Shown: piece by piece, positions 12,785 to 56,700 of the stretch | Numbering within the stretch: position 1 is the stretch's first letter | How the letters are laid out: each line of letters starts with the position of its first letter | From: Hydractinia symbiolongicarpus | Taxonomy: Eukaryota; Cnidaria; Hydrozoa; Anthoathecata; Hydractiniidae | Reading direction: 5' to 3' | Length of the DNA stretch: 64,000 nt | NCBI RefSeq assembly: GCF_029227915.1 | Contig: NC_079876.1 | Span: 29,981,828-30,045,827 of the forward strand | Notes under the pieces: model-generated | What the model was told of the DNA's origin: nothing | The model's input: the letters and a program-made list of their open reading frames with translations, nothing else | The model's database searches: none | Made by a program: the position numbers and the translations under genes

Positions 12785-14548
12785 ATGGCTCCAAAGTATA
12801 TGAAATGGTCTGAAGAAGAGATGGTGAATGCTGTGAGTGCAGTGTTAGATGACGGCATGTCAATTTCTGAGGCGTCAAGAGTTTTTGATATCCCACGAAA
12901 AACGTTATCGGACAAAGTCCATAACAACCATCCTTTAAAATCAGGACGGCAAACTGAGCTAACGGCAGATGAGGAAAAAAGCTTGGTGGCGTACATCAAA
13001 TACATGTCGAATCATGCTTTCCCCCTGACCATTCCTATGATAAAGTCATTCGCATGGAACATTGTAAAGAGGTCAGGAAGGGAAAGTAGATTTAATGTTG
13101 AGAATGGTCCTGGGAAAACTTGGTGGAACGAGTTCCGTAAACGCCATTTAAGTGATGTAGCAATTAGAAAGCCAGATTTGCTGGACAGAGGAAGGGCGAG
13201 GATGGCAAATCCTGTTGTTATAAACAGACACTTTTTGACTTTGGGAAACCTTTTGAAAAGTGAGAATTTAATGGACAAGCCTGGAACAATATTTAATGTA
13301 GATGAATCGGGGATGAATTTAGAGTTGAGGAAGGGAAAGGTTGTCATTGATCGAAGCCAGAAACATGCGTATTCGCAAGGTAAAGGGTCGCGGGAACACG
13401 TCACTGTTAATTGCTGTGTTTCTCCAGGCGGACTGATGATTCCACCTTTTATTATTTATGAGAAGTCTTTTCCAAGCGGAAACTACTCTGCCAATGGCCC
13501 CACTGATGCTCTATATGGCAAATCCGACAATGGATATATGGACGAAGACCTGTTCTTCAAGTGGTTTACTCGTTTATTTGTTCCAAAAACTAAACACGTG
13601 GGGAAAAGAATCTTGATAATTGATGGCCACGGATCCCACATCAACCTCAATTTAATAGATGCTGCTAGGGAGAACCAAGTTATCTTGTATTGCCTCCCCC
13701 CTCACACAACTCATGTGCTTCAGCCATTGGATGTTGGATTGTATGGTCCACTCAAGACATACTTCAGCAGAATTAGGTTGGGCGTCACGAGAAATGTTAC
13801 GATTTCCAAAACTGAATTTTCTGCTGTTTTTAAGCTGGCGTACGAGGAAACCTTTAGCTACGCTCGCATCCTTTCATCATTTCGGTCATGTGGCATATAC
13901 CCGTTCAACCCACTGGCCATAAATTTAAAACGTTTAATGCCATCTACTACGTCAACTGTACCGCCAACTACATCGTCAACTCTACTGCCACCTGTACCGT
14001 CAATGACATCGTCAACTCTACCGCTACCTGTACCGCCAACTGCATTGTCAACTCTACCGCCACCTTTACCGTCAATTGCTTCGTCGACTTTTCCGCCACC
14101 TGTACCGTCAATTGCATCGTCAACTCTATCGCCAACTGCATCATCAAATGTACCATCAACATCGTCGTCACCAACAGCTGCATCTTTCCCAGGAACTTTG
14201 AACAGTCTTCCGGGTGGATCGATATCTTCAATGCCATCAGCAAACCGACTACCTGCTGCTTTCCAAAATATGGATCCAAATATAATCGATCTATTTATCA
14301 CGCCGATTCTGGAGCCTGAAAAAAAAGAAAAGAACAGTAGAATTGTCACTAAAGAAAGAATCATCACTTCCGACGAGCATCGTGCAAAACTGGAAGAAAA
14401 GAGCAGATTAAAAAGAGAACTTGAAGAAGCTAAAGAGAAACGTAAATTGGAGAGGGAAAGAAAAAAGAAGGAGAGAGAAACAACAACAAAAAGCCAAAGA
14501 GCGAAATGCGAAAAAAAGAAAAACCTCCCCAATCGAGGCTTCTACTGA
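12785..14548 (+). CDS. pogo-like DDE transposase (main frame)
   Basis: I start at the ATG of MAPKYMKW (12785), because the preceding 12 residues look like leader noise. Residues 5-50 form a psq-type helix-turn-helix (SEEEMVNAVSAVLDDG, then SISEASRVFDIPRKTLSDKV). A CENP-B-like second DNA-binding region follows. The DDE_1 catalytic core has FNVDESG (D173), IDGHGSH (D280) and LQPLD (D316), so spacing is DD35D, as in pogo/Tigger/jerky families. Residues about 385-470 are a Pro/Ser/Thr-rich stretch built from imperfect tandem repeats, and a charged coiled-coil-like Glu/Lys region follows. The frame ends at 14548. The neighbouring frame carries a zinc-finger tail, so the natural protein was probably longer. 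The element may still bind DNA, but activity is uncertain. Confidence 0.85.
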   Translation: MAPKYMKWSEEEMVNAVSAVLDDGMSISEASRVFDIPRKTLSDKVHNNHPLKSGRQTELTADEEKSLVAYIKYMSNHAFPLTIPMIKSFAWNIVKRSGRESRFNVENGPGKTWWNEFRKRHLSDVAIRKPDLLDRGRARMANPVVINRHFLTLGNLLKSENLMDKPGTIFNVDESGMNLELRKGKVVIDRSQKHAYSQGKGSREHVTVNCCVSPGGLMIPPFIIYEKSFPSGNYSANGPTDALYGKSDNGYMDEDLFFKWFTRLFVPKTKHVGKRILIIDGHGSHINLNLIDAARENQVILYCLPPHTTHVLQPLDVGLYGPLKTYFSRIRLGVTRNVTISKTEFSAVFKLAYEETFSYARILSSFRSCGIYPFNPLAINLKRLMPSTTSTVPPTTSSTLLPPVPSMTSSTLPLPVPPTALSTLPPPLPSIASSTFPPPVPSIASSTLSPTASSNVPSTSSSPTAASFPGTLNSLPGGSISSMPSANRLPAAFQNMDPNIIDLFITPILEPEKKEKNSRIVTKERIITSDEHRAKLEEKSRLKRELEEAKEKRKLERERKKKERETTTKSQRAKCEKKKNLPNRGFY

Positions 14549-19082: not shown

Positions 19083-22000
19083 TCATGCCACAGCGTTAAC
19101 AGATGGATCAGTTTGTTCATCTTCAACGATAGATTCATATTCTGTATTTTTACGATATAAAACATAATGTTGAACGATAAACAAAATATCGAAAAGAATG
19201 GAGAAAAAACCAAGACCAAATTTCGTAAAATCTCCAAATATTGAGTTCCACTCATCTAGAAAAGAATATTAAAGAAGGAATATTATCACAACATTATTGT
19301 ATTAAAAAATGAAATAAAGAAAAAAAGAAACAGAAGATCACAATATTCACTTTAGGAACATTCATTTCTAATTAAAATTTTTCTAATCAACATCCACTGA
19401 AGGCAGTAAAACTTGATGAGTTTGCTATAAATTCAGAATTGTCTGGCGCACACGAATCAATGCATTCAAATTCTATTTTCAAAATGTAAATAAATAAACA
19501 AATACGTACTGTTATTGTATGCTAGAAGAAACATTTGAATAAGACTAAACGAACCACCAGTGAAATCTAACAACACATTACCAATACTCCATCCTACAGT
19601 TGATTTACGTCTAAAATTCATATACGCCTAAAAAAAGAAGTACACATGTGGAGGAGAAACTGTTTACCCGTGGTTTATTTAGTTATTGATACACTGATGA
19701 TATCACATTGAACCAGCCGTTTTTTGACACAATTTTAGGAAATTTTAAGATAACACAGATCGAAAATACTCAGATTTTACATCGACAACAATAAGTAGAC
19801 ATGAAGTGTTGTGTAAAAATTACCTGTGGTACATATTTGATGAGCGTGACACCAAGTTTGATATATGAGAAAAAATCTAAGTAAGTTAACCACGTAATTT
19901 TTGATAAAACAGCAGGAACCAATGAACAGGCTGCAAATAACCAGGCTATTATCACTAAGATGATACAAATGATGGAAATTCTTTGTGTTCCACGCTAAAA
20001 TGTAAGGCGAGAAATATGACACAAAATATGTTGCACCCGAGGGCTTCAAACACATTTAGACTGTTACATGAAAACTCCAAATAAATCAACTATCAAGTTC
20101 TGATAGATGAGAAATACAACCATACTGAACTCTCAGCATATGCAACAATATAACAACTTACATCATAAATAAAACACTGAGATATGGTGATGATAGTTAA
20201 CAGAACAGCATGAAGAGCAAAGAAGACATCATTTGGTTGCACGGGAATAACAGAACCGCCATATTTAGCAAAATATTCATCCTAAATCGGAGGAAAAATA
20301 AAAAAGTAATTTTTCATCATATTTTTATGTTTAAACCGTCAGCATGAAACAATCATTTTAAAATAATATTTCTTTTTGCTATTCTGCAAACTTTTAAATA
20401 CATTCATGCTCCTTATTTTAGCTATTCTTTACAAATGTTCAGAAACCACGCAGTTCTTCCTAACATTTTGATTTTTTAAATTTTGCATCAAGGTGGCAGT
20501 AAACCTTTTCTAGCTGTATTTCCGGAGAATATCAACATTCAACTTTGACTCATTATCTAAATTGCTGAGTCAGTAGAAATTACTAGTTAACATGTACGGT
20601 ATAAATTGCCTTTATGATCCCCAAATTTTTACAAACACATAATTTTCATTTTCTAATAAAATGAACTTTAACGTAACCTAGTTGACAGGGTGTGCGGAGT
20701 TTTTCTGTTCATTCATATATTTGTATTTTTTGAAAAATTAATGGGTAGCATTCTCTGTTGCACCAATTAAAAGAAAATTATCCATAGTAAAAATATTTCC
20801 GCACACCATATCATAACTGTACCATTTCACAAACTTATCTGAAAAATTTCGAGCGAAACAAAAGAATTTTATAATATAAAAAACATGGATATATATTTTG
20901 AAGTTAACCCTTAATAACTATATAGGTAAAAAAAAAAAATTAAAAGAGTTACTGCTACCTGGACTTTTTCTTAAATTATTTTTATTGCGGGGACGACACA
21001 TTGTTTTTTTTGCTTGGTGCAGCAAAATAAGGTTGCAACTGTATTATATTTTACTTTTTTAGCACATTTAGCACATCACATTTCACAATTTTCGTTATAA
21101 TTCTACAATATGTACCTGTATTGATGTTACCCAAAACAGACCAACATTGAAAAATGAATAAGCAAGAAAACCAGTCAAATTATAACAAAGAAAATCAAAA
21201 TTCAATCCAACAACGCTAAAAGAAATGGTACAAGTAATAAATAACAGAGAAGATAGAAAAAAAAGAGATTATCAAGCCTATGAAATGTTGTTTAAATGCA
21301 AGTGGAAAACAGGTGGAAAGCAGGCGAAGTAAGGCGAAAACAGGCGAAATAAGGCGAAAACAGGCGAAATAAGGCGAAAGCAGGTGAAAGAAGGCGAAAG
21401 CAGGTGAAAGAAGGCGAAAGGAGGCGAAAACACCTAAGTTACCTTTTTCTTTTGTAATTCACATATACCTAAAACAATTAAAACAAATATTTCAATCACT
21501 TATTAAACTTGCTGTAAATTCTAAGCTTTAAATCATGTATACAAAATTTTCTTAGAATATTATATAAAAAATATAAAAATAGAATTACTGAAATACAGAA
21601 TTACAGAATTTCCTTAAGGTAGAAAAATAGTGCAAAATTAATTATCCTTGTATTAGCAAACTTAAATTCCACATTTTGTAAACAAGGAAGAACATTCGCA
21701 GTCTTTTGCTTAGCATTTTATGTTATTTTAACATAAACAAAAACTGTGTTATATCACAATGCTAATTCTGCACAAATTCTCATTGTTCAATTTGCAAACT
21801 TAGATTCTACAATCTTCTCTCCTGTCAAGAATTTCTTCTCTTAAGGTATAAGATAACTATTTACGCAGTTGTGGTAACTAAATTGGTTGTTACCTGTGGA
21901 TAAAACGACACTGACCATGCAAGGAAATATATCCATCCAATTACACTGATCACTGAGTTCAAAGTGAGAGAGTGAACAACTAATATATGCACTCGATCAT

Positions 22001-29936: not shown

Positions 29937-32900
29937 ATGAAAACAGCCAATGACTTTATATCACAACTAGTGGATGATGGGTACCCATCACAACCCTGGC
30001 CATCTTCCACATTTGAAAATGACTTCATTCTGTTGTCAGAATTTTCAGAAATGGTTGGACCAAAACCAATTTTCACAATTCCGATGCAGCAAAATTCAAA
30101 ATTTGATTTAAATGAGTTTGCTGTACGAATAATGTCTGTAGATTGTGTGTCGATAATGCAAACCACTGATTTTTCAAGTTTCAACATTGCTGGTGATATT
30201 CAGGTAATTTTGGTTTTGTAAACATTCTTAATGAGCACCAACCAATAAACAATTAGAAGCTGGCGAAACAGCTCTCTTTACAGGCTAGTTTCCATTGGTA
30301 CAATATATTGTGCAAAATAAATTGTAGAGATATAACCACAAGATGTACAATATATTGTGACTTCAAAGGTCACATTTCTTTTAAAAATAAAATCAGTTTG
30401 ATTTGAAGTATAACTAGTAGCAGGTTTCTATTAAGCCAATTTTAAAAGAATTAAAAGTATCTTTTGTTTTCTTTGCATTTAAGCATTATCAAAACAGAAG
30501 TGTAAACTATTTATATCCTTCTTGTATATAATTGTGCAGAATTGTACACTAGTTCTACAATGTACAATATAACGTACAATTTGCATGTAAATTGTGTAAA
30601 ATGTCTTCATCGACATTTCTAATCCTGTTCAAATGACATTTTTATATTTTTATTTTTATATTTTATTTTTTCATATATTTTCAGGCAATTTTGTGCTTTT
30701 AAAACACTAACAGAATTCTTTTACAATCCTCCCTTTTGTTGCTATGCAGGTTGTACTAACAGAATTCCTTTGCAATCATTTTGTTGCTTTGCAGGATGCA
30801 CTAACAAAATTCCTTTGCAATCATTTTGTTGCTTTGCAGGTTGTACTAACAAAATTCCTTTGCAATCATTTTGTTGCTTTGCAGGTTGTACTAACAGAAT
30901 TCCTTTGCAATCATTTTGTTGCTTTGCAGGTTGTACTAACAGAATTCCTTTGCAATCATTTTGTTGCTTTGCAGGTTGTACTAACAGAATTCCTTTGCAA
31001 TCATTTTGTTGCTTTGCAGGATGCACTAACAAAATTCCTTTGCAATCATTTTGTTGCTTTGCAGGTTGTACTAACAGAATTCCTTTGCAATCATTTTGTT
31101 GCTTTGCAGGTTGTACTAACAGAATTCCTTTGCAATCATTTTGTTGCTTTGCAGGTCGTACTAACAGAATTCCTTTACAATCCTCTCTTTTGTTGCTTTG
31201 CAGGTTGTACTAACAGAATTCCTTTGCAATCATTTTGTTGCTTTGCAGGTTGTACTAACAGAATCCCTTTGCAATCATTTTGTTGCTTTGCAGGATGCAC
31301 TAACAAAATTCCTTTGCAATCATTTTGTTGCTTTGCAGGATGCACTAACAAAATTCCTTTGCAATCATTTTGTTGCTTTGCAGGTTGTACTAACAGAATC
31401 CCTTTGCAATCATTTTGTTGCTTTGCAGGATGCACTAACAAAATTCCTTTGCAATCATTTTGTTGCTTTGCAGGTTGTACTAACAGAATCCCTTTGCAAT
31501 CCTCTCTTTTGTTGCTTTGCAGGTTGTACTAACAGAATTCCTTTGCAATCATTTTGTTGCTTTGCAGGTTGTACTAACAGAATCCCTTTGCAATCCTCTC
31601 TTTTGTTGCTTTGCAGGATGCACTAACAAAATTCCTTTGCAATCATTTTGTTGCTTTGCAGGTTGTACTAACAGAATCCCTTTGCAATCATTTTGTTGCT
31701 TTGCAGGATGCACTAACAAAATTCCTTTGCAATCATTTTGTTGCTTTGCAGGATGCACTAACAAAATTCCTTTGCAATCATTTTGTTGCTTTGCAGGTTG
31801 TACTAACAGAATCCCTTTGCAATCATTTTGTTGCTTTGCAGGATGCACTAACAAAATTCCTTTGCAATCATTTTGTTGCTTTGCAGGTTGTACTAACAGA
31901 ATCCCTTTGCAATCCTCTCTTTTGTTGCTTTGCAGGTTGTACTAACAGAATTCCTTTGCAATCATTTTGTTGCTTTGCAGGTTGTACTAACAGAATCCCT
32001 TTGCAATCCTCTCTTTTGTTGCTTTGCAGGATGCACTAACAAAATTCCTTTGCAATCATTTTGTTGCTTTGCAGGTTGTACTAACAGAATTCCTTTGCAA
32101 TCCTCTCTTTTGTTGCTTTGCAGGTTGTACTAACAGAATCCCTTTGCAATCATTTTGTTGCTTTGCAGGATGTACTAACAGAATTCCTTTGCAATCATTT
32201 TGTTGCTTTGCAGGTTGTACTAACAGAATTCCTTTGCAATCCTCCATTTTTTTGTTTTGTAGGTTGTACTAACAGAATCAAAAGAAGGTGCTGTTGCTTA
32301 CGTACACCATTTTGTTCTTTACGATATTTGCGCACGTGGCTTTGTTCGTCCATACTGTCTGGCGTACATCACTCGAAATTATACTGAACTGATGGCGAAA
32401 TTCAACGATCTGTTAGGATACTTTCAAACTGTTTCGTCTTTATACCACTTCGGTAATACTCTGAATTTCCTCCTTGATCTGTCGCTACGGATGCAACATT
32501 TGACAGAGCTTAAAGATGCCTTACAATGCAGCACGAAAGATATTTGCATTGATGGTAAGACTCTCACACAATCACAGAAAGAAAGCATCTCCCTAGCATC
32601 ATTAGATGAATCTATGCAACAATTGAAAGAACTAACTTCAATCTTCAAAGCTTATTGCGAGCGGGATATGTTTCAAGAACATCGTGATATTTTTCGACAA
32701 AGGTATGAAGAGATTCTCAACTGTAGCGTAGACACGACGGAATCAAGTGAAACAGACTCCTGCGCAGTGGATGAAGGCATTCCACAAGAAGATGGGTTTC
32801 AACTTGATATTGAGGGTGACGGCATTACCATAGAACCCAAGTCCGCTCACCATGTGCCATCTGATGTTGTGTCTTCCATATTAGGTGAGTGGTTTTCCAT

Positions 32901-34724
32901 ATTTGGCGAGTGATTTTCCATATGAGGCGAGTGATTTCTGTCTTTCTGTTTGAAAATATTAAAAATACAACACGATGGTGTTTGCATAGAATTCTTTTTT
33001 AAATTCTTTTCAGACTGGAATAACATTTTGATAAATGCCTTAAAGGTTTACTAAAGTTTTAAATTTTCACCTGGCGTTCATTTTAAGGGCGTTTATTTTT
33101 AAACAAGGGCGGATTTTTTTGCCAAAAAAACTATTCTGTAGCAGTTAGTGAGAGATGCCTTTTACGACTAACCAAAAATATTTCGAAAGCATTCTATTTG
33201 GATATGATACACCTATTGTCAAAGACGTAAATTATCCCGAGTTAATATTTAGCAAGAGAAAAATTTACTTATTTATTTTTAGGGAAGAAATATGACAAAC
33301 CCCTTCGAAATTTAAACACACTTTGTGACGTGACATTTGATCCTGGAATTGAGATGCTTAAGTATTGTTTAGACTCGATTACTCACGAAGAGTATTCAAA
33401 ACATACTTCGCCTTCTCTAAATGGTACATTCAACCAAGCGTCTAAACTGCAGTTTGGTATGTTTGAGTTTTCTGTGACGCCCTTCTCTTCCGCTCACCGC
33501 GGTTGTGATTTGCATACCAAGGAAACAGCATGTCAGTCTTCTTTACAAAACCTATTGCTTGTGAAAGCTGGGTACGAGCTTCGCGAATCTAACGCTTCAA
33601 ACAAAGTGGATATCATCAAACTTGACTCGGTAGACGGCACACAAAAAGTGACGATGAATATCAACAATTCTTTCCTATCTGATTTAAAAATAACAAATAT
33701 ACCCTCTCCTGTACATAGTTCGTCAAAGTTGCCGGTCCGATTAGATTCTTACGTCAATATACCGTCAGTGACGTCCGATGTAGCGCTTGACGTGCATTCA
33801 TCGACGTCACAACAAAGTAGCACCGTTAATATCAGTGCAAACCAGAGCGAAGGTTCACCAGACTCTTTTAAAGATGCGTTAGAACATTTTTCCAGCAAGA
33901 GTTCCACGCCTGATTCGCTTTTCACAAAAATTGAATTCAACCGTTGCAGTAGTGTCATAAGCACCGCGAGCAGTTTTTCAAATACTTCCGAACATTTGAA
34001 GTATTCTAAAGTTTCGTTATTGTCTTTACGAAAGAAATATTCGTTTCTTCCTCATGCCGTGTTTTCGTTGTTCATTGGTCGTCCCTTGATCGTACTTGGT
34101 GAAGAGAAGCATATGAAGAACATAAAACGGATTATATACGGATTTGCTAACTTTCTTGTTACAAGTGACCACGCGGTGAGGAAAATCATTCCATGGTCAA
34201 CGGAGATGATTAAATTGGAAGAAATGGAGAAAGTTGGATTGTGTGGCTTAATGAAAAGTAACAGCGGTATTTCAAACTCTTTAAAACCTTATGTATCAAT
34301 AATAGATTATGAAAACCAAACATTGGTTGCTCCTGTCTATACCGGTAAATTTCTGGCAGATATGTTCGAGACAAGTAAACATTTTACGACAGAACATGTC
34401 TATAGGAGATATGTGCATCAGATATTTTCACAAATCATGAACATTGTTTATGTACAGTTCACGGCGAAATATGCACAGTCCGGTAAATACGGCGTAGCGA
34501 ATATATACGGCTTGCGCTTATATGGTGATATACATATGATGCAGGGAAAGTTATTAGCAGGCGATTTATTGATATTGCGAGAATTGGTTGAAAGACTTCG
34601 AGAGCAAGTGATGAGTGCTGTGTGTAATGAAGGAGATTTAGAGATGATTGTAACGGCTGCAAGAAAGACCATCAAGTTGAATACACTTAAGTCTTCACTT
34701 TTTGTCAACAAAAATAAGAAGTGA
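29937..34724 (+). CDS. SMCR8: SMCR8, DENN-family partner of C9orf72
   Basis: Three coding exons, 29937-30203, 32263-32884 and 33283-34724, join in phase to 2331 bases (776 aa; human about 937). The N-terminal longin/uDENN part has FILLSEFSEMVGPKPIFTIP and RIMSVD. Exon 2 opens VVLTESKEGAVAYVHHFVLY, then DICARGFVRPYC. The Arg in that motif (R114 here) aligns with the proposed GAP arginine finger of human SMCR8 (R147). The middle is Ser/Thr-rich and disordered. The C-terminal DENN part has HAVFSLFIGRPLIVLGE and ends shortly after the helical region, with stop at 34722. SMCR8 forms a complex with C9orf72 and WDR41 that acts on small GTPases at lysosomes and in autophagy. Odd feature: the 2.06-kb first coding intron ends in a tandem array of splice-acceptor copies. 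Confidence 0.92.
30684..32262 (+). repeat. Tandem array of 33 duplicated 3' splice sites in SMCR8 intron
   Basis: From 30750 there are 33 head-to-tail units, 26 of 45 bp and seven of 49 bp (those starting 31155, 31474, 31568, 31887, 31981, 32075, 32214). A decayed unit precedes them from 30684. Each unit runs GTTGTACTAACAGAAT, CCTTTGCAATC, then a T-rich tract and TTTGCAG. The first 16 bases equal the first 16 bases of exon 2 (from 32263). The unit is therefore a duplication across the intron/exon border. A second unit type has GATGCACTAACAAAAT. Units 12-20 (31249-31661) and 21-29 (31662-32074) form a 413-bp higher-order duplication. Two frames of the 45-bp unit are open, so long spurious ORFs appear on both strands. 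Confidence 0.97.
32214..32263 (+). promoter_or_regulatory. Presumed functional branch point and 3' splice site of SMCR8 exon 2
   Basis: The last unit has TACTAAC at 32218-32224 and a longer T tract than any other unit (CCATTTTTTTGTTTTGTAG). The AG at 32261-32262 is followed by GTT of exon 2. It is the only acceptor ending TAG rather than CAG. Only this site continues the conserved SMCR8 frame. The branch A at 32223 is 39 bases from the AG, and the only intervening AG lies too close to the branch to be used normally. Confidence 0.75.
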
Positions 34725-44269: not shown

Positions 44270-45333
44270 GAATTTCCGCGCCCGAAGGCGTAGGAAATTC
44301 TTTAAAACCGTCGTTTTTTTCTTTCGGAGCATTTTTTGAGAAAAAATCGACCCTGGGATTTCACGTTGGTCCGTCACAGATGTAAACTTCGTACCCAAGC
44401 TCCTTAACTACTGGGAAGTCTAGTATTGACGCCTCAGGCCAAAATTGGTATTTGTTTTCGACAAAATTTGGCACAGTTAACAAATAAAGTATGCTGAACA
44501 TGATGGTGACATCAAAATTTTGATTTCTTGTTACCTAAATGTCATTTTAGGCCAAAATTGGTCCAAAAATTAAAACTACTTTATTTTTGACAAATTTTGG
44601 CACAATTAACAAAAAAAGTATGGTGAACATGATGGTGACATCAAAATTTCGGTTTTTTGCCACCTTAAATGTCATTTTAGGCCAAAATTGGTCCAAAAAT
44701 TAAAACTACTTCATTTTCAACAAAAATTGGCAAAGTTAACAAAAAAAGTATGCTGAACATAATGGTGACATCAAAATTTTGATTTTTGTCACCCAAATGC
44801 CATTTTAGACCAAAATTGGTCCAAAAATTAAAACCACTTCATTTTCGGCTAAATCTGGCACGGTTAACAAATAAAGTATGCTGAAAATGATGATGGTACA
44901 AAAGTTTGATTTTTTGTCACCTAAATGTCATTTCAGGCCAAAATTTATCCAAAAATTAAAACTGCTTTATTTTCGACAAAAATTGACACAGTTAATAAAA
45001 AAAGTATGCTGAAAATGATGGTTACATCAAAATTTTGATTTTTTGTCAACTAATGCCGTTTAAGACCATAAACGTCTCAATCGCAAGACTTTCAACCATG
45101 AATGATAGGCTGTATTTTTTGTTAGCAATTTCTTTTAAAATGTGAGTTTATTATGACACGTTTCGTTTTGTTTGCGTTTGTTGTAAGATATAATGTCACT
45201 GATGGGCTTTATCTTCAGAGGTTCATGCACCAAGCCCCTTCGAATGTTTGGCACAATAACACAACGAATTAGCAGGTTTTCATCAAATATTTTAGTAGCG
45301 CGCGGAAATTCTTAGAGCCCCCAGGGCTTCTTG
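44270..45333 (+). mobile_element. Helentron-like (HINE) element 1 with internal minisatellite
   Basis: Starts GAATTTCCGCGCCCGAAGGC preceded by T. Near the 3' end is GCGCGGAAATTC (inverted copy of the start), then a hairpin AGCCCCCAGGGCT and the terminal CTTCTTG followed by T. In between, five units of about 128 bp (for example AGTATGCTGAACATGATGG once per unit). Subterminal inverted repeats, central tandem repeats, a 3' hairpin and insertion between two Ts are the known layout of Helentron-associated non-autonomous elements. It abuts LINE sequence on its right. Confidence 0.72.
44395..45060 (+). repeat. ~128-bp minisatellite of HINE element 1 (about 5 units)
   Basis: Units contain GGCCAAAATTGGTCCAAAAA, AAGTATGCTGAACATGATGG and TTTTGTCACCTAAATGTC. 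The same unit forms the core of the element at 47795-49628. Confidence 0.88.
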
Positions 45334-47794: not shown

Positions 47795-49628
47795 GAATTT
47801 CCGCGCCCGAAGGCGTAGGAAATTCTTTAAAACCGTCGTTTTTTCTTTCGGAGCATTTTTTGAGAAAAAATCGACCCTGGGATTTCACGTTGGTCCGTCA
47901 CAGATGTAAACTTCGTACTCAAGCTCCTTAACTACTGAGAAGTCTAGTATTGATGCTTCAGGCCAAAATTGGTATTTGTTTTCGACAAAATTTGACACAG
48001 TTAACAAAAAAAGTATGCTGAACATAATGGTGACATAATAATTTTGATTTTTGTCACCTAAATGTCATTTTAGGCCAAAATTGGTCCAAAAATTAGAACT
48101 ACTTTTTATTTTCAACAAAATTTGGCACAGTAAACAAATAAAGTATGCTGAACATGATGGTGACATCAAAATTTTGATTTCTTGTTACCTAAATGTTATT
48201 TTAAGCCAAAATTGGTCTTAAAATTAAAACTACTTTATTTTTGACAAATTTTGGCACAATTAACAAAAAAAGTATGCTGAACATGATGGTGACATCAAAA
48301 TTTTGATTTCTTCTTACCTAAATGTCATTTCAGGCCAAAATTGGTCCAAAAATTAAAACTACTTTATTTTTAACAAAATTTGGCACAGTAAACAAATAAA
48401 GTATGCTAAACATGATGGTGACATTAAAATTTTGATTTCTTGTTACCTAATTGTCATTTTAGGCCAAAATTGGTCCAAAAATTAAAACTACTTCATTTTC
48501 AACAAAAATTGGCAAAGTTAACAAAAAAAGTATGCTGAACATAATGGTGACATCAAAATTTTGATTTTTGTCACCTAAATGTCATTTTAGGCCAAAATTG
48601 GTCGAAAAATTAGAACTACTTTATTTTCAACAAAATTTGGCACAGTAAACAAATAAAGTATGCTGAACATGATGGTGACATCAAAATTTTGATTTCTTGT
48701 TACCTAAATGTCATTTTAGGCCAAAATTGGTCTTAAAATTAAAACTACTTTATTTTTGACAAATTTTGGCACAATTAACAAAAAAAGTATGCTGAACATG
48801 ATGATGACATCAAAATTTTGATTTCTTCTTACCTAAATGTCATTTTAGGCCAAAATTGGTCCAAAAATTAAAACTACTTTATTTTTAACAAAATTTGGCA
48901 CAGTAAACAAATAAAGTATGCTAAACATGATGGTGACATCAAAATTTTGATTTCTTGTTACCTAAATGTCATTTTAGGGCAAAATTGGTCCAAAAATTAA
49001 AACTACTTTATTTTCAACAAAAATTGGCAAAGTTAACAAAAAAGTATGCTGAACATAATGTTTACATCAAAATTTTGATTTTTGTCACCTACATGCTATT
49101 TTAGGCTAAAGTTGGTCCAAAAATTAAAACCACTTCATTTTCGGCTAAATCTGGCACAGTTAACAAATAAAGTATGCTGAAAATGATGATGGTACAAAAG
49201 TTTGGTTTTTGTCACCTAAATGTCATTTCAGGCCAAAATTTATCCTAAAATTAAAACTGCTTTATTTTCGACAAAAATTGACACAGTTAATAAAAAAAGT
49301 ATGCTGAAAATGATGGTCACATCAAAATTTTGATTTTTTGTCAACTAATGCCGTTTAAGACCATAAACGTTTTAATCGCAAGACTTTCAACCATGAATGA
49401 TAGGCTGTATTTTTTGTTAGCAATTTCTTTTAAAATGTGAGTTTATTATGACACGTTTCGTTTTGTTTGCGTTTGTTCTAAGATATAATGTCACTGATGG
49501 GCTTTATCTTCAGAGGTTCATGCACCAAACCCCTTCGAATGTTTGGCACAATAACACAACGAATTAGCAGGTTTTCATCAAATATTTTGGTAGCGCTCGG
49601 AAATTCTTAGAGCCCCCAGGGCTTCTTG
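47795..49628 (+). mobile_element. Helentron-like (HINE) element 2 with internal minisatellite
   Basis: Same start (GAATTTCCGCGCCCGAAGGC) and same end (CGGAAATTCTTAGAGCCCCC, then AGGGCTTCTTG) as element 1, again between Ts. It is longer (1834 against 1064 bp) because the minisatellite has eleven rather than five units. It lies inside the TIR element, so it is the youngest of the three nested insertions. Confidence 0.75.
47960..49360 (+). repeat. ~129-bp minisatellite of HINE element 2 (11 units)
   Basis: The AGTATGCT landmark recurs at about 48011, 48142, 48271, 48400, 48529, 48657, 48786, 48915, 49043, 49171 and 49298. Spacing is 127-131 bases. Alternating unit subtypes (CAGTAAACAAATAAAG versus AATTAACAAAAAAAG) suggest amplification in pairs or larger blocks. 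Confidence 0.92.
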
Positions 49629-53726: not shown

Positions 53727-56700
53727 ATGTTTGGCAATATGCCTGTGAAAAGAACGTCCAGTACACGTGTTTTGAAACGGTCGCTTAAAAGTACAGAATC
53801 GTGCCAAGAAAATCAAATTTTATCAACTTTTAAAAGTTTGTTATGGTCAGAAAGTGATGAAAAAAAGGTAAAACTTGACATGAACGGGAATCAGGAGGAC
53901 TTTGAGAGTAAATATCTTTCTTCTTCGACTCCAGAATTTTCCGTACCGTTTAAGAAAAAGTCTTTTGGGAAAAATGGTTTAACAGTTTCAACAGAATGCA
54001 CTGGATTTCTAGATGATAGTGATTTAGATTCAGATTGTGGGTCCCCAAATGACTCAGAAAATGACTCCAACCAAAGTAAATCTTTCTTTGGAACTTTATT
54101 TTCACCAGTTTTTTCATTTTTTAAAAGTGATGATGATTCTAAGTGTGATACTGCTTTGAAATCATACATAAAAGATGAACACTCATCTTACTTGACAGAT
54201 GACTCATCTAATTCTGATTCAGAACAAGAAAAAGATTTTACTGCTGTTTACAATTATAGTACGCTACGTCACCCATGTGACAAAACAAATGCTGAACCGT
54301 CAAATAATTCTGAAGATTTTAATCCATATCACTTTATAAAACATATTCCACCACCTTCCTCTGAATTACGAAGAACAGTTTTACCATTGCCAACAAGACG
54401 TACACCTCGAATGTCCTTGGTACTTGACTTGGACGAGACTTTAGTACATTGTAGTTTAACACAGATTGAGAGATACAATTTAACATTTGAAGTTTTATAT
54501 GAAAATGATGTTTATCAAGTCTATGTACGGAAGAGGCCTTATTTGTATGAATTTTTAGAAAAGGTTTCAAAGTTATATGAGGTTATATTATTCACTGCAT
54601 CAAAGAGAGTTTATGCTGAAAAGTTACTAAACATTATAGATCCTAAAAGACAGTTTTTTCGACATCGTCTTTTTCGAGAACATTGTGTTAATGTGCAAGG
54701 GAATTATATCAAAGATCTGACAATACTAGGTATGTTTTTTGTTATATATATATATACACATGTTTTGTGATTTTACTGACAAAGGAATAGGATTACATCA
54801 CTAGCGCCTGAATGCAAACATTGTTTTAGTCAGAAATTTCAAAACAGTTTTGCATTGTAAAGCATTGTAGAAATAGGGGCACTGATGAGCTGCATGCACC
54901 GTAAAAAGTGTGAGTTTTTTTGGGCAACATCAGCTTTTTCAAAAAAATTTTAGAGTTACAAGAAAATTTAAAAAAATTATTTAGTGTATCTTGGAACCTT
55001 GAAACTTAAAGGGAACCCGGGGTATAAAATGATGTTGGACTTATATTATAGAGCTTAAAAAGTTAGCTAACAAGTCTTTTAAATTTTTTAAAAAGCTCTT
55101 TTCGTTCTCAAGATATTCACATCTAAAGAATTTCAGATTTAATTATGCTGCATGAATTAGGATGTCATATTTCAGCAGCCCTTGAAATAAATTTTTTTTA
55201 AATGTCCGCCACATCTCCAGCTTGGTCACACATGTCTGTAGCTCGTTTCGAACTTTCGTCGGACAAAACTTCCTATAGATTTATGTCTTGGTCGGACACT
55301 TTTAGATCTCAGAATTATTGAATAGTCCTTTTAATCCATAAGCAAGCTTATTCATAGCCAACCTGACCATCCTAGCTAATGCACTGACTCCTGTCTTCGT
55401 CATTGGTAACCAGGTCTCACACAAGAAATCCACCCATGCGGTTCTTAACTAATGCGGAGGTAAACGCCGACGGAGCACGGATGAAGCAAGTCTGCAAAAC
55501 TGAACTTACAGGCGGAACAGACATTATATCATGGATTTAATTGTAGATAATTTCTTCATTTGACAAAACGATTGAAAACCATAGCAGGTCCCATGTAATT
55601 GATTTTTTTCTTTATGCCGCAAGTGTTATTTTTATTCAAACAATTTTAAAAACGAAACCCAAGTGGGGTATTGTTTTTTTTCTTGTTAAAATGTAGCTGA
55701 ACTTTCTGAATGAATTTTGAAGTTTTATTTGAGCCACATGGATAAAGATTTTTTTTAATTTGAAAACGAAGCATATTATTTCCCATTTGCTTGTGATGAG
55801 TTTACAAATAATAATAATAATAATAATACAAACTTAACTTAATCTATTTTATACTAGTCGTTAGCATCATCATCATCATCATTCTCGGCTTAACGTCCGT
55901 TTTCCATGCTAGCATGGGTTGGACGGGGTATATTAATGACCCTCTTCCAATCTGATCTAGACTGTGTTAGATCTAAACTCAACTTCCTCTCTATCAAGTC
56001 TGTCCTTATAACCTCCTGCCAAGTCTTTCTCGGTCTGCCTCTGGGCTTTGCCCCAGGAACTATCAAGTCTCTACACTTTCTTACCCAATTATCCTCCTCC
56101 ATTCTTTCCAAGTGCCCCAGTGGAAAAATCCATGGGTTCGCCTGTCCTTTATATTTATCCGTTGCAACAAAGTGGATAAAAATATATCGCATTTGATATT
56201 CGTGTTTCCGTAACATCATTTTCTAACTCAGCGAAGGGGTCCGCGCAGAGACAGACAGACGACGGCTATTATTATAGAGACTAGTCGTTAGCCTGTGGAA
56301 AAATCCACGGGTTCGCCCGTCCTTTAAATTTACCCGTGGCAACAAAGTGGATAAAAATATATTGCATTTGATATTCATGTTTCCGTAGCACGGTTTTTTA
56401 ACTCAGCGGGGGGTCCGCGCAGAGACAGACAAAATACAGCTATTATTAAAGAGATGTTTCAAGTTTTCTTTAGCGACGGCATTTTTTTGTGATTTAATTG
56501 GCTTATTAAAATGCGCAGCCTTACCTTGTTTTTTAACGGAGCCGCCCAACAGATTTTTTATTTGTGGTATGTGTGATCATGATTAAGAAACTTCCATGAT
56601 GGCACATGTCAGATGAAAACAAAACGAAAGAGATGCGGAACGAAGATTGATCAAAAGATACAACATTATATTTGAATTATCTCATCATTTTTGCATTGAT

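Follow-up and report, generated by a model that had tools for sequence, protein, structure and literature searches.

Minisatellites whose units act as splice sites have a precedent in the human IFI6 (6-16) gene, where units reportedly of 12 nt lie over the end of exon 2. This minisatellite is described as supplying several splice donors and as having more than one of them in use (Turri et al., 1995, NAR 23:1854, as cited in PMC4526556). A duplication at an intron/exon border has been reported from the potato RdRp gene, in which a single tandem duplication across intron 1 and exon 2 gave rise to an additional intron whose donor is GTAAG, as shown by RNA-Seq (PMC4974935). Serial acceptors have also been placed in competition experimentally. 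In globin pre-mRNA with a duplicated 3' splice site, the upstream copy being followed by 14, 55 or 205 exon bases, splicing is reported to the distal site only and to be very inefficient (PMC5389562). The same article describes that, when a strong 3' site is duplicated, some RNAs bear two U2AF35 and two U2 snRNPs, that splicing is poor, and that a decoy oligonucleotide raised it several-fold (PMC5389562).

The window analysed here, a 64-kb stretch (64,000 nucleotides) of Hydractinia symbiolongicarpus DNA with 33.7% G+C, encodes animal genes, and one of them, SMCR8, carries an array of acceptors at the end of its first intron. As in the published description of IFI6, where more than one site is used, this is a minisatellite whose units are potential splice sites. 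The two differ in that the IFI6 donors are described as giving slightly different proteins, whereas the SMCR8 acceptors have their own branch points and offer no productive alternative. By this analogy, the SMCR8 array is the acceptor counterpart of the IFI6 donor minisatellite. The likeness to potato RdRp, as reported, lies in a duplicated segment that reaches from the 3' part of an intron into the beginning of the next exon and copies the branch site, tract and AG. In potato, however, one duplication made a new intron, while in SMCR8 there are 33 copies with no good donor, which extend an existing intron and are known from DNA alone. The constructs of Reed and Maniatis employed in PMC5389562 share with SMCR8 the serial acceptors and the short exon piece (14 nt) after the upstream one, but they had two sites and were assayed in vitro, whereas SMCR8 has 34 in a natural gene. 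NAGNAG tandem acceptors are likewise adjacent alternative acceptors; as described, they lie 3 nt apart (PMC3250501), in contrast to 45-49 nt in SMCR8, where each has its own branch point. A minisatellite of DDX3Y was rejected as a parallel, being described in connection with transcription start and the 5' UTR rather than with repeated splice sites (PMC3039753). No natural long acceptor array was found among the titles and abstract beginnings listed from the open-licence literature. Given the accounts of the IFI6 donor minisatellite (PMC4526556) and the potato border duplication (PMC4974935), the original prediction went too far in holding that no such case had been described.

The SMCR8 exons (Table 1) together make 776 codons, and the second intron is 398 bp long. 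The gene had been named SMCR8 from the outset, and homology upholds this. The best PDB match of the translation is the human-type SMCR8 entry 6lt0 (E 6.5e-48), aligned in two stretches in the N-terminal and C-terminal parts (residues 19-251 and 488-685). Pfam returned Folliculin alone, just under its cut-off (22.3 vs 23.3 bits). Five relatives were found at E<=0.001 in a large protein database (7995 scored candidates); among these candidates, the closest is P0001, of 777 aa and 95% identical, and the nearest relative that bears a name is a Clytia smcr8a-like protein (P0003) with 39% identity over 100%.

Table 1. Features of the SMCR8 locus, in positions of the window.
Feature	Position	Strand	Remarks
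SMCR8 exon 1, coding part	29937..30203	+	ATG at 29937; donor CAG/GTAATT after 30203; phase 0
SMCR8 intron 1, 2059 bp	30204..32262	+	acceptor array makes up nearly three quarters of its length
Decayed left edge of array	30684..30749	+	unit 0, possible stump, and TTTTCAG acceptor ending at 30684
Array units 1-32	30750..32213	+	26 x 45 bp, 6 x 49 bp
Exact 461-bp direct repeat, 413-bp offset	31217..32090	+	31217-31677 and 31630-32090; 9-unit block copied once
Array unit 33 (terminal), 49 bp	32214..32262	+	ends TAG; only acceptor yielding full-length SMCR8
SMCR8 exon 2, 622 bp	32263..32884	+	units' exon part derives from its first 16 bases
Three 21-bp tandem copies over exon 2 donor	32874..32937	+	donor AG/GTGAGT after 32884; GC-type copies after 32905 and 32926
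SMCR8 exon 3 to stop codon	33283..34724	+	

A script searching for G[AT][TC]G[TC]ACTAAC returned 34 starts from 30750 to 32263, the last of which is the true exon start. The 33 consecutive units between them fill 30750-32262 (26 of 45 bp and 7 of 49 bp, 1513 bp in all). TRF reported the same array, as 33.7 copies of 45 bp with 90% matches and a score of 2467. The 33 tandem units of 45 or 49 bp first proposed are confirmed. Units 1-32 are laid out as a copy of the exon 2 start with YACTAAC, a T-rich tract, and TTTGCAG. The notion that the units repeat the first 16 bases of exon 2 is exact for 20 of the 33 (nine of which match to base 17) and too strict for the other 13, which differ at one to three bases. 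Two further details needed correction: a GTT start, assumed for every unit, is present in only 21 (11 begin with GAT and one with GTC), and the last acceptor is TAG rather than CAG.

On the left, the array fades into a decayed unit 0 (30701-30749, with its acceptor at 30749), whose consensus score of 72 compares with a best value of 32 in 500 shuffles. The segment 30684-30717, which covers a possible stump and the start of unit 0, scored 28, a value reached by one of 500 shuffles; 30684-30700 may represent what is left of a further unit, a weaker case than unit 0. Divergence from the 49-bp consensus is greatest at the two ends of the array, with 9 differences in the left-edge unit and 5 in the terminal one, as would be expected of an array homogenised from within. 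Apart from the 45/49 difference (columns 28-33), substitutions in units 1-32 are confined to columns 2-23. The array is in these respects a minisatellite, with head-to-tail units of at least 7 bp, homogenised, and with the edge units most divergent. Motif conservation in the units was considered as a sign of selection and rejected, as it represents about seven independent events, which are too few.

Nine unit types follow each other in the order ABCAAABAADAEBBEBFAFBEBBEBFAFBGEHI, in which the block EBBEBFAFB stands twice in succession. Units 12-20 and 21-29 form an exact 413-bp repeat, with 461 bp of total identity; this block copy is either very recent or an effect of assembly. It seems quite improbable that assembly error created the array or its copy number. 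Exact internal repeats such as this one of 461 bp are prone to being collapsed or copied by assemblers, but the doubt falls mainly on the 413-bp block. Errors would hardly produce nine unit types in an order that is for the most part not periodic, edges that are graded, and a left unit that has decayed.

Thirty-four array acceptors were counted (30749, 30794 and onwards to 32262), in agreement with the expected run of about 34 consecutive 3' splice sites, and TTTTCAG at 30684 comes in addition. All 33 units contain YACTAAC and YAG, and the branch A precedes the G of the next acceptor by 35 nt in 26 cases and by 39 nt in 8. Each unit is a complete acceptor module, as predicted, and the array presents potential tandem alternative 3' splice sites, each of which has an AG, a tract and a suitably spaced branch point. 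YACTAAC occurs 35 times within 30690-32300 (24 TACTAAC and 11 CACTAAC) and only twice on the same strand in the rest of the 64 kb; the CACTAAC-type units number 10 of 33. The branch-point motif is itself coding sequence, GTA CTA ACA (Val-Leu-Thr), and VVLTE is kept in the three closest relatives that cover the site (P0001, P0002 and the Clytia protein P0003), which supports the view that the exon-derived part of the unit supplies the branch point. Units of types A and D-I, 22 of the 33, have a further AG 3 nt after the branch A; an AG so near is reported to be one that can be skipped (PMC1431707).

We joined the donor at 30203 in silico to 35 acceptors, namely 30684, 30749 and the 33 unit ends. 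Every one of the 34 upstream acceptors led to a premature stop, and the full 776-aa protein came from 32262 alone, which is also the only one among all 81 AGs of intron 1 to give it. Translation of 30 of the 34 failing joins ends at the TAA within a YACTAAC copy, because the frame after two 49-bp units reads the branch-point copy as TAC TAA or CAC TAA. Three others (acceptors 32123, 32168 and 32213) run into a TGA in exon 2, which is out of frame past the terminal unit because that unit is 49 bp long, and acceptor 30684 meets a TAA at 30700. The branch-point motif doubles as the stop codon for nearly every wrong acceptor choice. All 34 stops lie 500-2185 nt upstream of the exon 2/3 junction, well beyond the distance of about 50 nt from the last junction that marks a poison acceptor, and the upstream sites are in this sense candidate poison acceptors. 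Such premature stops are a classical setting for nonsense-mediated decay.

These outcomes bear on the earlier suggestion that the array makes many isoforms, which proved unviable at the protein level. SMCR8 proteins with repeated 15-residue inserts (VVLTEFLCNHFVALQ) would be conceivable in that the 45-bp units are open in the frame used, but all 34 upstream choices stop at the distances given above, and since these joins all stop early, the array is no generator of protein isoforms. A search of proteins for the truncated isoform (exon 1 plus array, 244 residues) also gave no such protein among 92 candidates at E<=1, a negative of weak weight because repeats break short-read contigs. We consider a family of insert-bearing isoforms extremely unlikely. 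The array does contain a 262-aa open reading frame, since two of the three unit frames are without stops; as a coding repeat it was rejected, being absent from every relative that covers the exon join.

The other alternative first suggested, exclusive use of the last site, fits the evidence from protein sequences. GDIQ/VVLTE is joined without an insert in three of the five database relatives (P0001, P0002 and Clytia P0003), the crinoid protein P0005 has no insert at the join as judged by eye, and P0004 does not cover it. P0001 reads GDIQ/VVLTESKEG across the join of exons 1 and 2, with the residues of the array absent. Its cluster consists of three contigs, the longest of 2666 bases, and was evidently read from spliced message, because a contig of this length has no room for the two introns (2059 and 398 bp) in addition to 2334 coding bases. 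The source tag of P0001, lgn, presumably refers to the Logan assemblies of public reads. This relative, like those behind P0002 and P0003, may be without the array.

Under equal competition the last site would receive a share of 1/35, and by the same arithmetic half of the output needs a 34-fold advantage; the last site therefore needs a real advantage. Its advantage in sequence is modest. The last acceptor has a T run of 7, where the remaining 33 of the array have 4; its 20-nt tract, at 85% pyrimidine, is equal to that of six other acceptors, and its longest unbroken pyrimidine run is 7, compared with 11 in those six.

RNA structure was rejected as a selector of the last site, as local accessibility does not distinguish it. 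The predicted unpaired probability of the terminal branch point (32218) is 0.042, within the 0.009-0.157 of the other units, and the 12 bases up to each AG are predicted to be paired at all 34 sites, which makes that measure uninformative. A fold of 314 nt gave a z of -1.82, with 3 of 100 shuffles as good. At eight of the nine border types (the other folds differently), the T-rich tract is predicted to pair with the ACTAAC-containing part of the next unit. This hairpin is weakest at the last site, by a small difference (-5.0 vs -5.3 to -7.8 kcal/mol). The strongest predicted hairpins precede the 10 B-type units, with -7.8 kcal/mol at eight sites, a value matched by 13 of 300 shuffles, and -7.2 kcal/mol at the other two (25 of 300), while the commonest border (15 sites, -5.9 kcal/mol) is ordinary, with 59 of 300 shuffles as good. 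Three random changes in an A-type border reached the B value in 140 of 3000 trials, and in 30 of 3000 with the branch core kept. The predicted excess of hairpin strength before B-type over A-type units is no more than suggestive, as a post hoc signal.

We think it likely, on these sequence features, that the array is a tolerated intronic minisatellite derived from a border duplication and that functional mRNA uses the last acceptor. Because each unit consists of the exon start joined to the intron end, the founding event was probably a tandem duplication across the border of intron 1 and exon 2, as had been proposed, which would have taken in about 16 exon and about 33 intron bases. Unit order and homogeneity suggest that the array then grew by unequal exchange or slippage; ordinary tandem-repeat turnover would suffice, and the array need not be called self-propagating. 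The exon part by chance encodes a strong branch point, so that each unit resembles a complete acceptor. Judging from the relative's protein and the reading frame, functional mRNA in this genome would join the donor at 30203 to the last acceptor at 32262. This site may be favoured by the real exon that follows it, with a downstream donor, whereas behind each upstream site intron sequence resumes after no more than about 16 exon bases. Since such a short exon piece resembles that of the constructs described in PMC5389562, the distal acceptor would be expected to be chosen, with reduced efficiency. Use of an upstream site would give frame-shifted or interrupted mRNA, presumably cleared by nonsense-mediated decay, and the price to the gene would be lost output, not wrong protein. 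The array would be tolerated because its terminal site makes functional mRNA.

Recursive splicing offers another path to the last site: an upstream join would rebuild a donor, CAG/GTTGTA, to be spliced again until the last site is reached. AG/GT stands at 22 of the 33 unit borders, but the remaining 11 units start with GA and are unable to serve as donors. Moreover, GTTGTA is a poor donor, and the 10 nt that separate donor and branch A in any one unit are too few. We regard this path as very unlikely, even with the reported potato RdRp case, in which the intron created by a border duplication took its donor from exonic sequence (PMC4974935).

The tolerated minisatellite is compatible with, and not exclusive of, a further reading, in which the array is an active brake that holds several U2AF and U2 at once, so that splicing is stalled or diverted into dead-end transcripts and SMCR8 output falls as copy number rises, in the manner of a rheostat. 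The unproductive outcome of all 34 upstream acceptors would suit a brake, as would the copied 9-unit block, which suggests variable array length, and the poor splicing reported after duplication of a strong 3' site, when U2AF35 and U2 snRNP were each present twice on some of the RNAs (PMC5389562). This two-site result, however, comes from nuclear extract in vitro, and the 10 of 33 units that combine the weaker branch point CACTAAC with a stronger preceding hairpin hint at decay of the upstream sites. We consider a brake possible but unlikely. It is more doubtful still that the locus is a natural spliceosome trap, in which about 34 acceptors would set SMCR8 output by copy number through U2AF/U2 occupancy and the decay of mis-spliced RNA, with units partly escaping by weakened branch points and hairpin-buried AGs.

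Choice among equal 3' sites has previously been studied, in published descriptions, with two engineered sites in extract (e.g., PMC5389562). The SMCR8 locus presents dozens of near-identical acceptors in a natural gene and has a built-in readout, with protein from the last only. It could separate rules that favour the site first transcribed, nearest the donor or nearest a real exon from an effect of too many bound factors. The value of the locus may lie in this natural experiment in 3' site choice, and a regulatory reading is possible.

Exon 2 also carries tandem copies over its donor (Table 1). The gene model uses AG/GTGAGT after 32884, and GC-type copies follow after 32905 and 32926; use of the donor at 32905 would add seven residues in frame, and use of that at 32926 would lead to a stop. 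Tandem arrays at both borders of one exon are a notable coincidence, as a single case. Small TRF arrays make up 1.3% of the window, a figure that includes the donor array and leaves out the acceptor array and two satellites. These satellites occupy 44455-45053 and 47975-49348, roughly 3 kb from each other, and their units of 128-129 bp look similar. A short tandem repeat of 10/20/30 bp (AGGCGAAATA) lies at 21305-21432.

Several other features were observed in the window. Upstream of the acceptor array, intron 1 holds three copies of a GTACAATATATTGTGC-like near-palindrome (30298-30579), perhaps the remnant of a mobile element. A transposase open frame (DDE_1, HTH_psq and HTH_Tnp_Tc5) spans 12785-14545, with internal 12/36-bp repeats at 13939-14160. 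The open reading frame at 53727-54770 is CTD small phosphatase-like (NIF domain). Among the best 120 of 2573 matches its closest protein is 98% identical over 95%, and the nearest of the named cnidarians are Hydra, Rhopilema and Clytia with 44-46%, which, like the Clytia SMCR8, fits a probable medusozoan origin of the DNA. The open reading frame at 37430-38155 matches DUF273 (E 1.4e-24).
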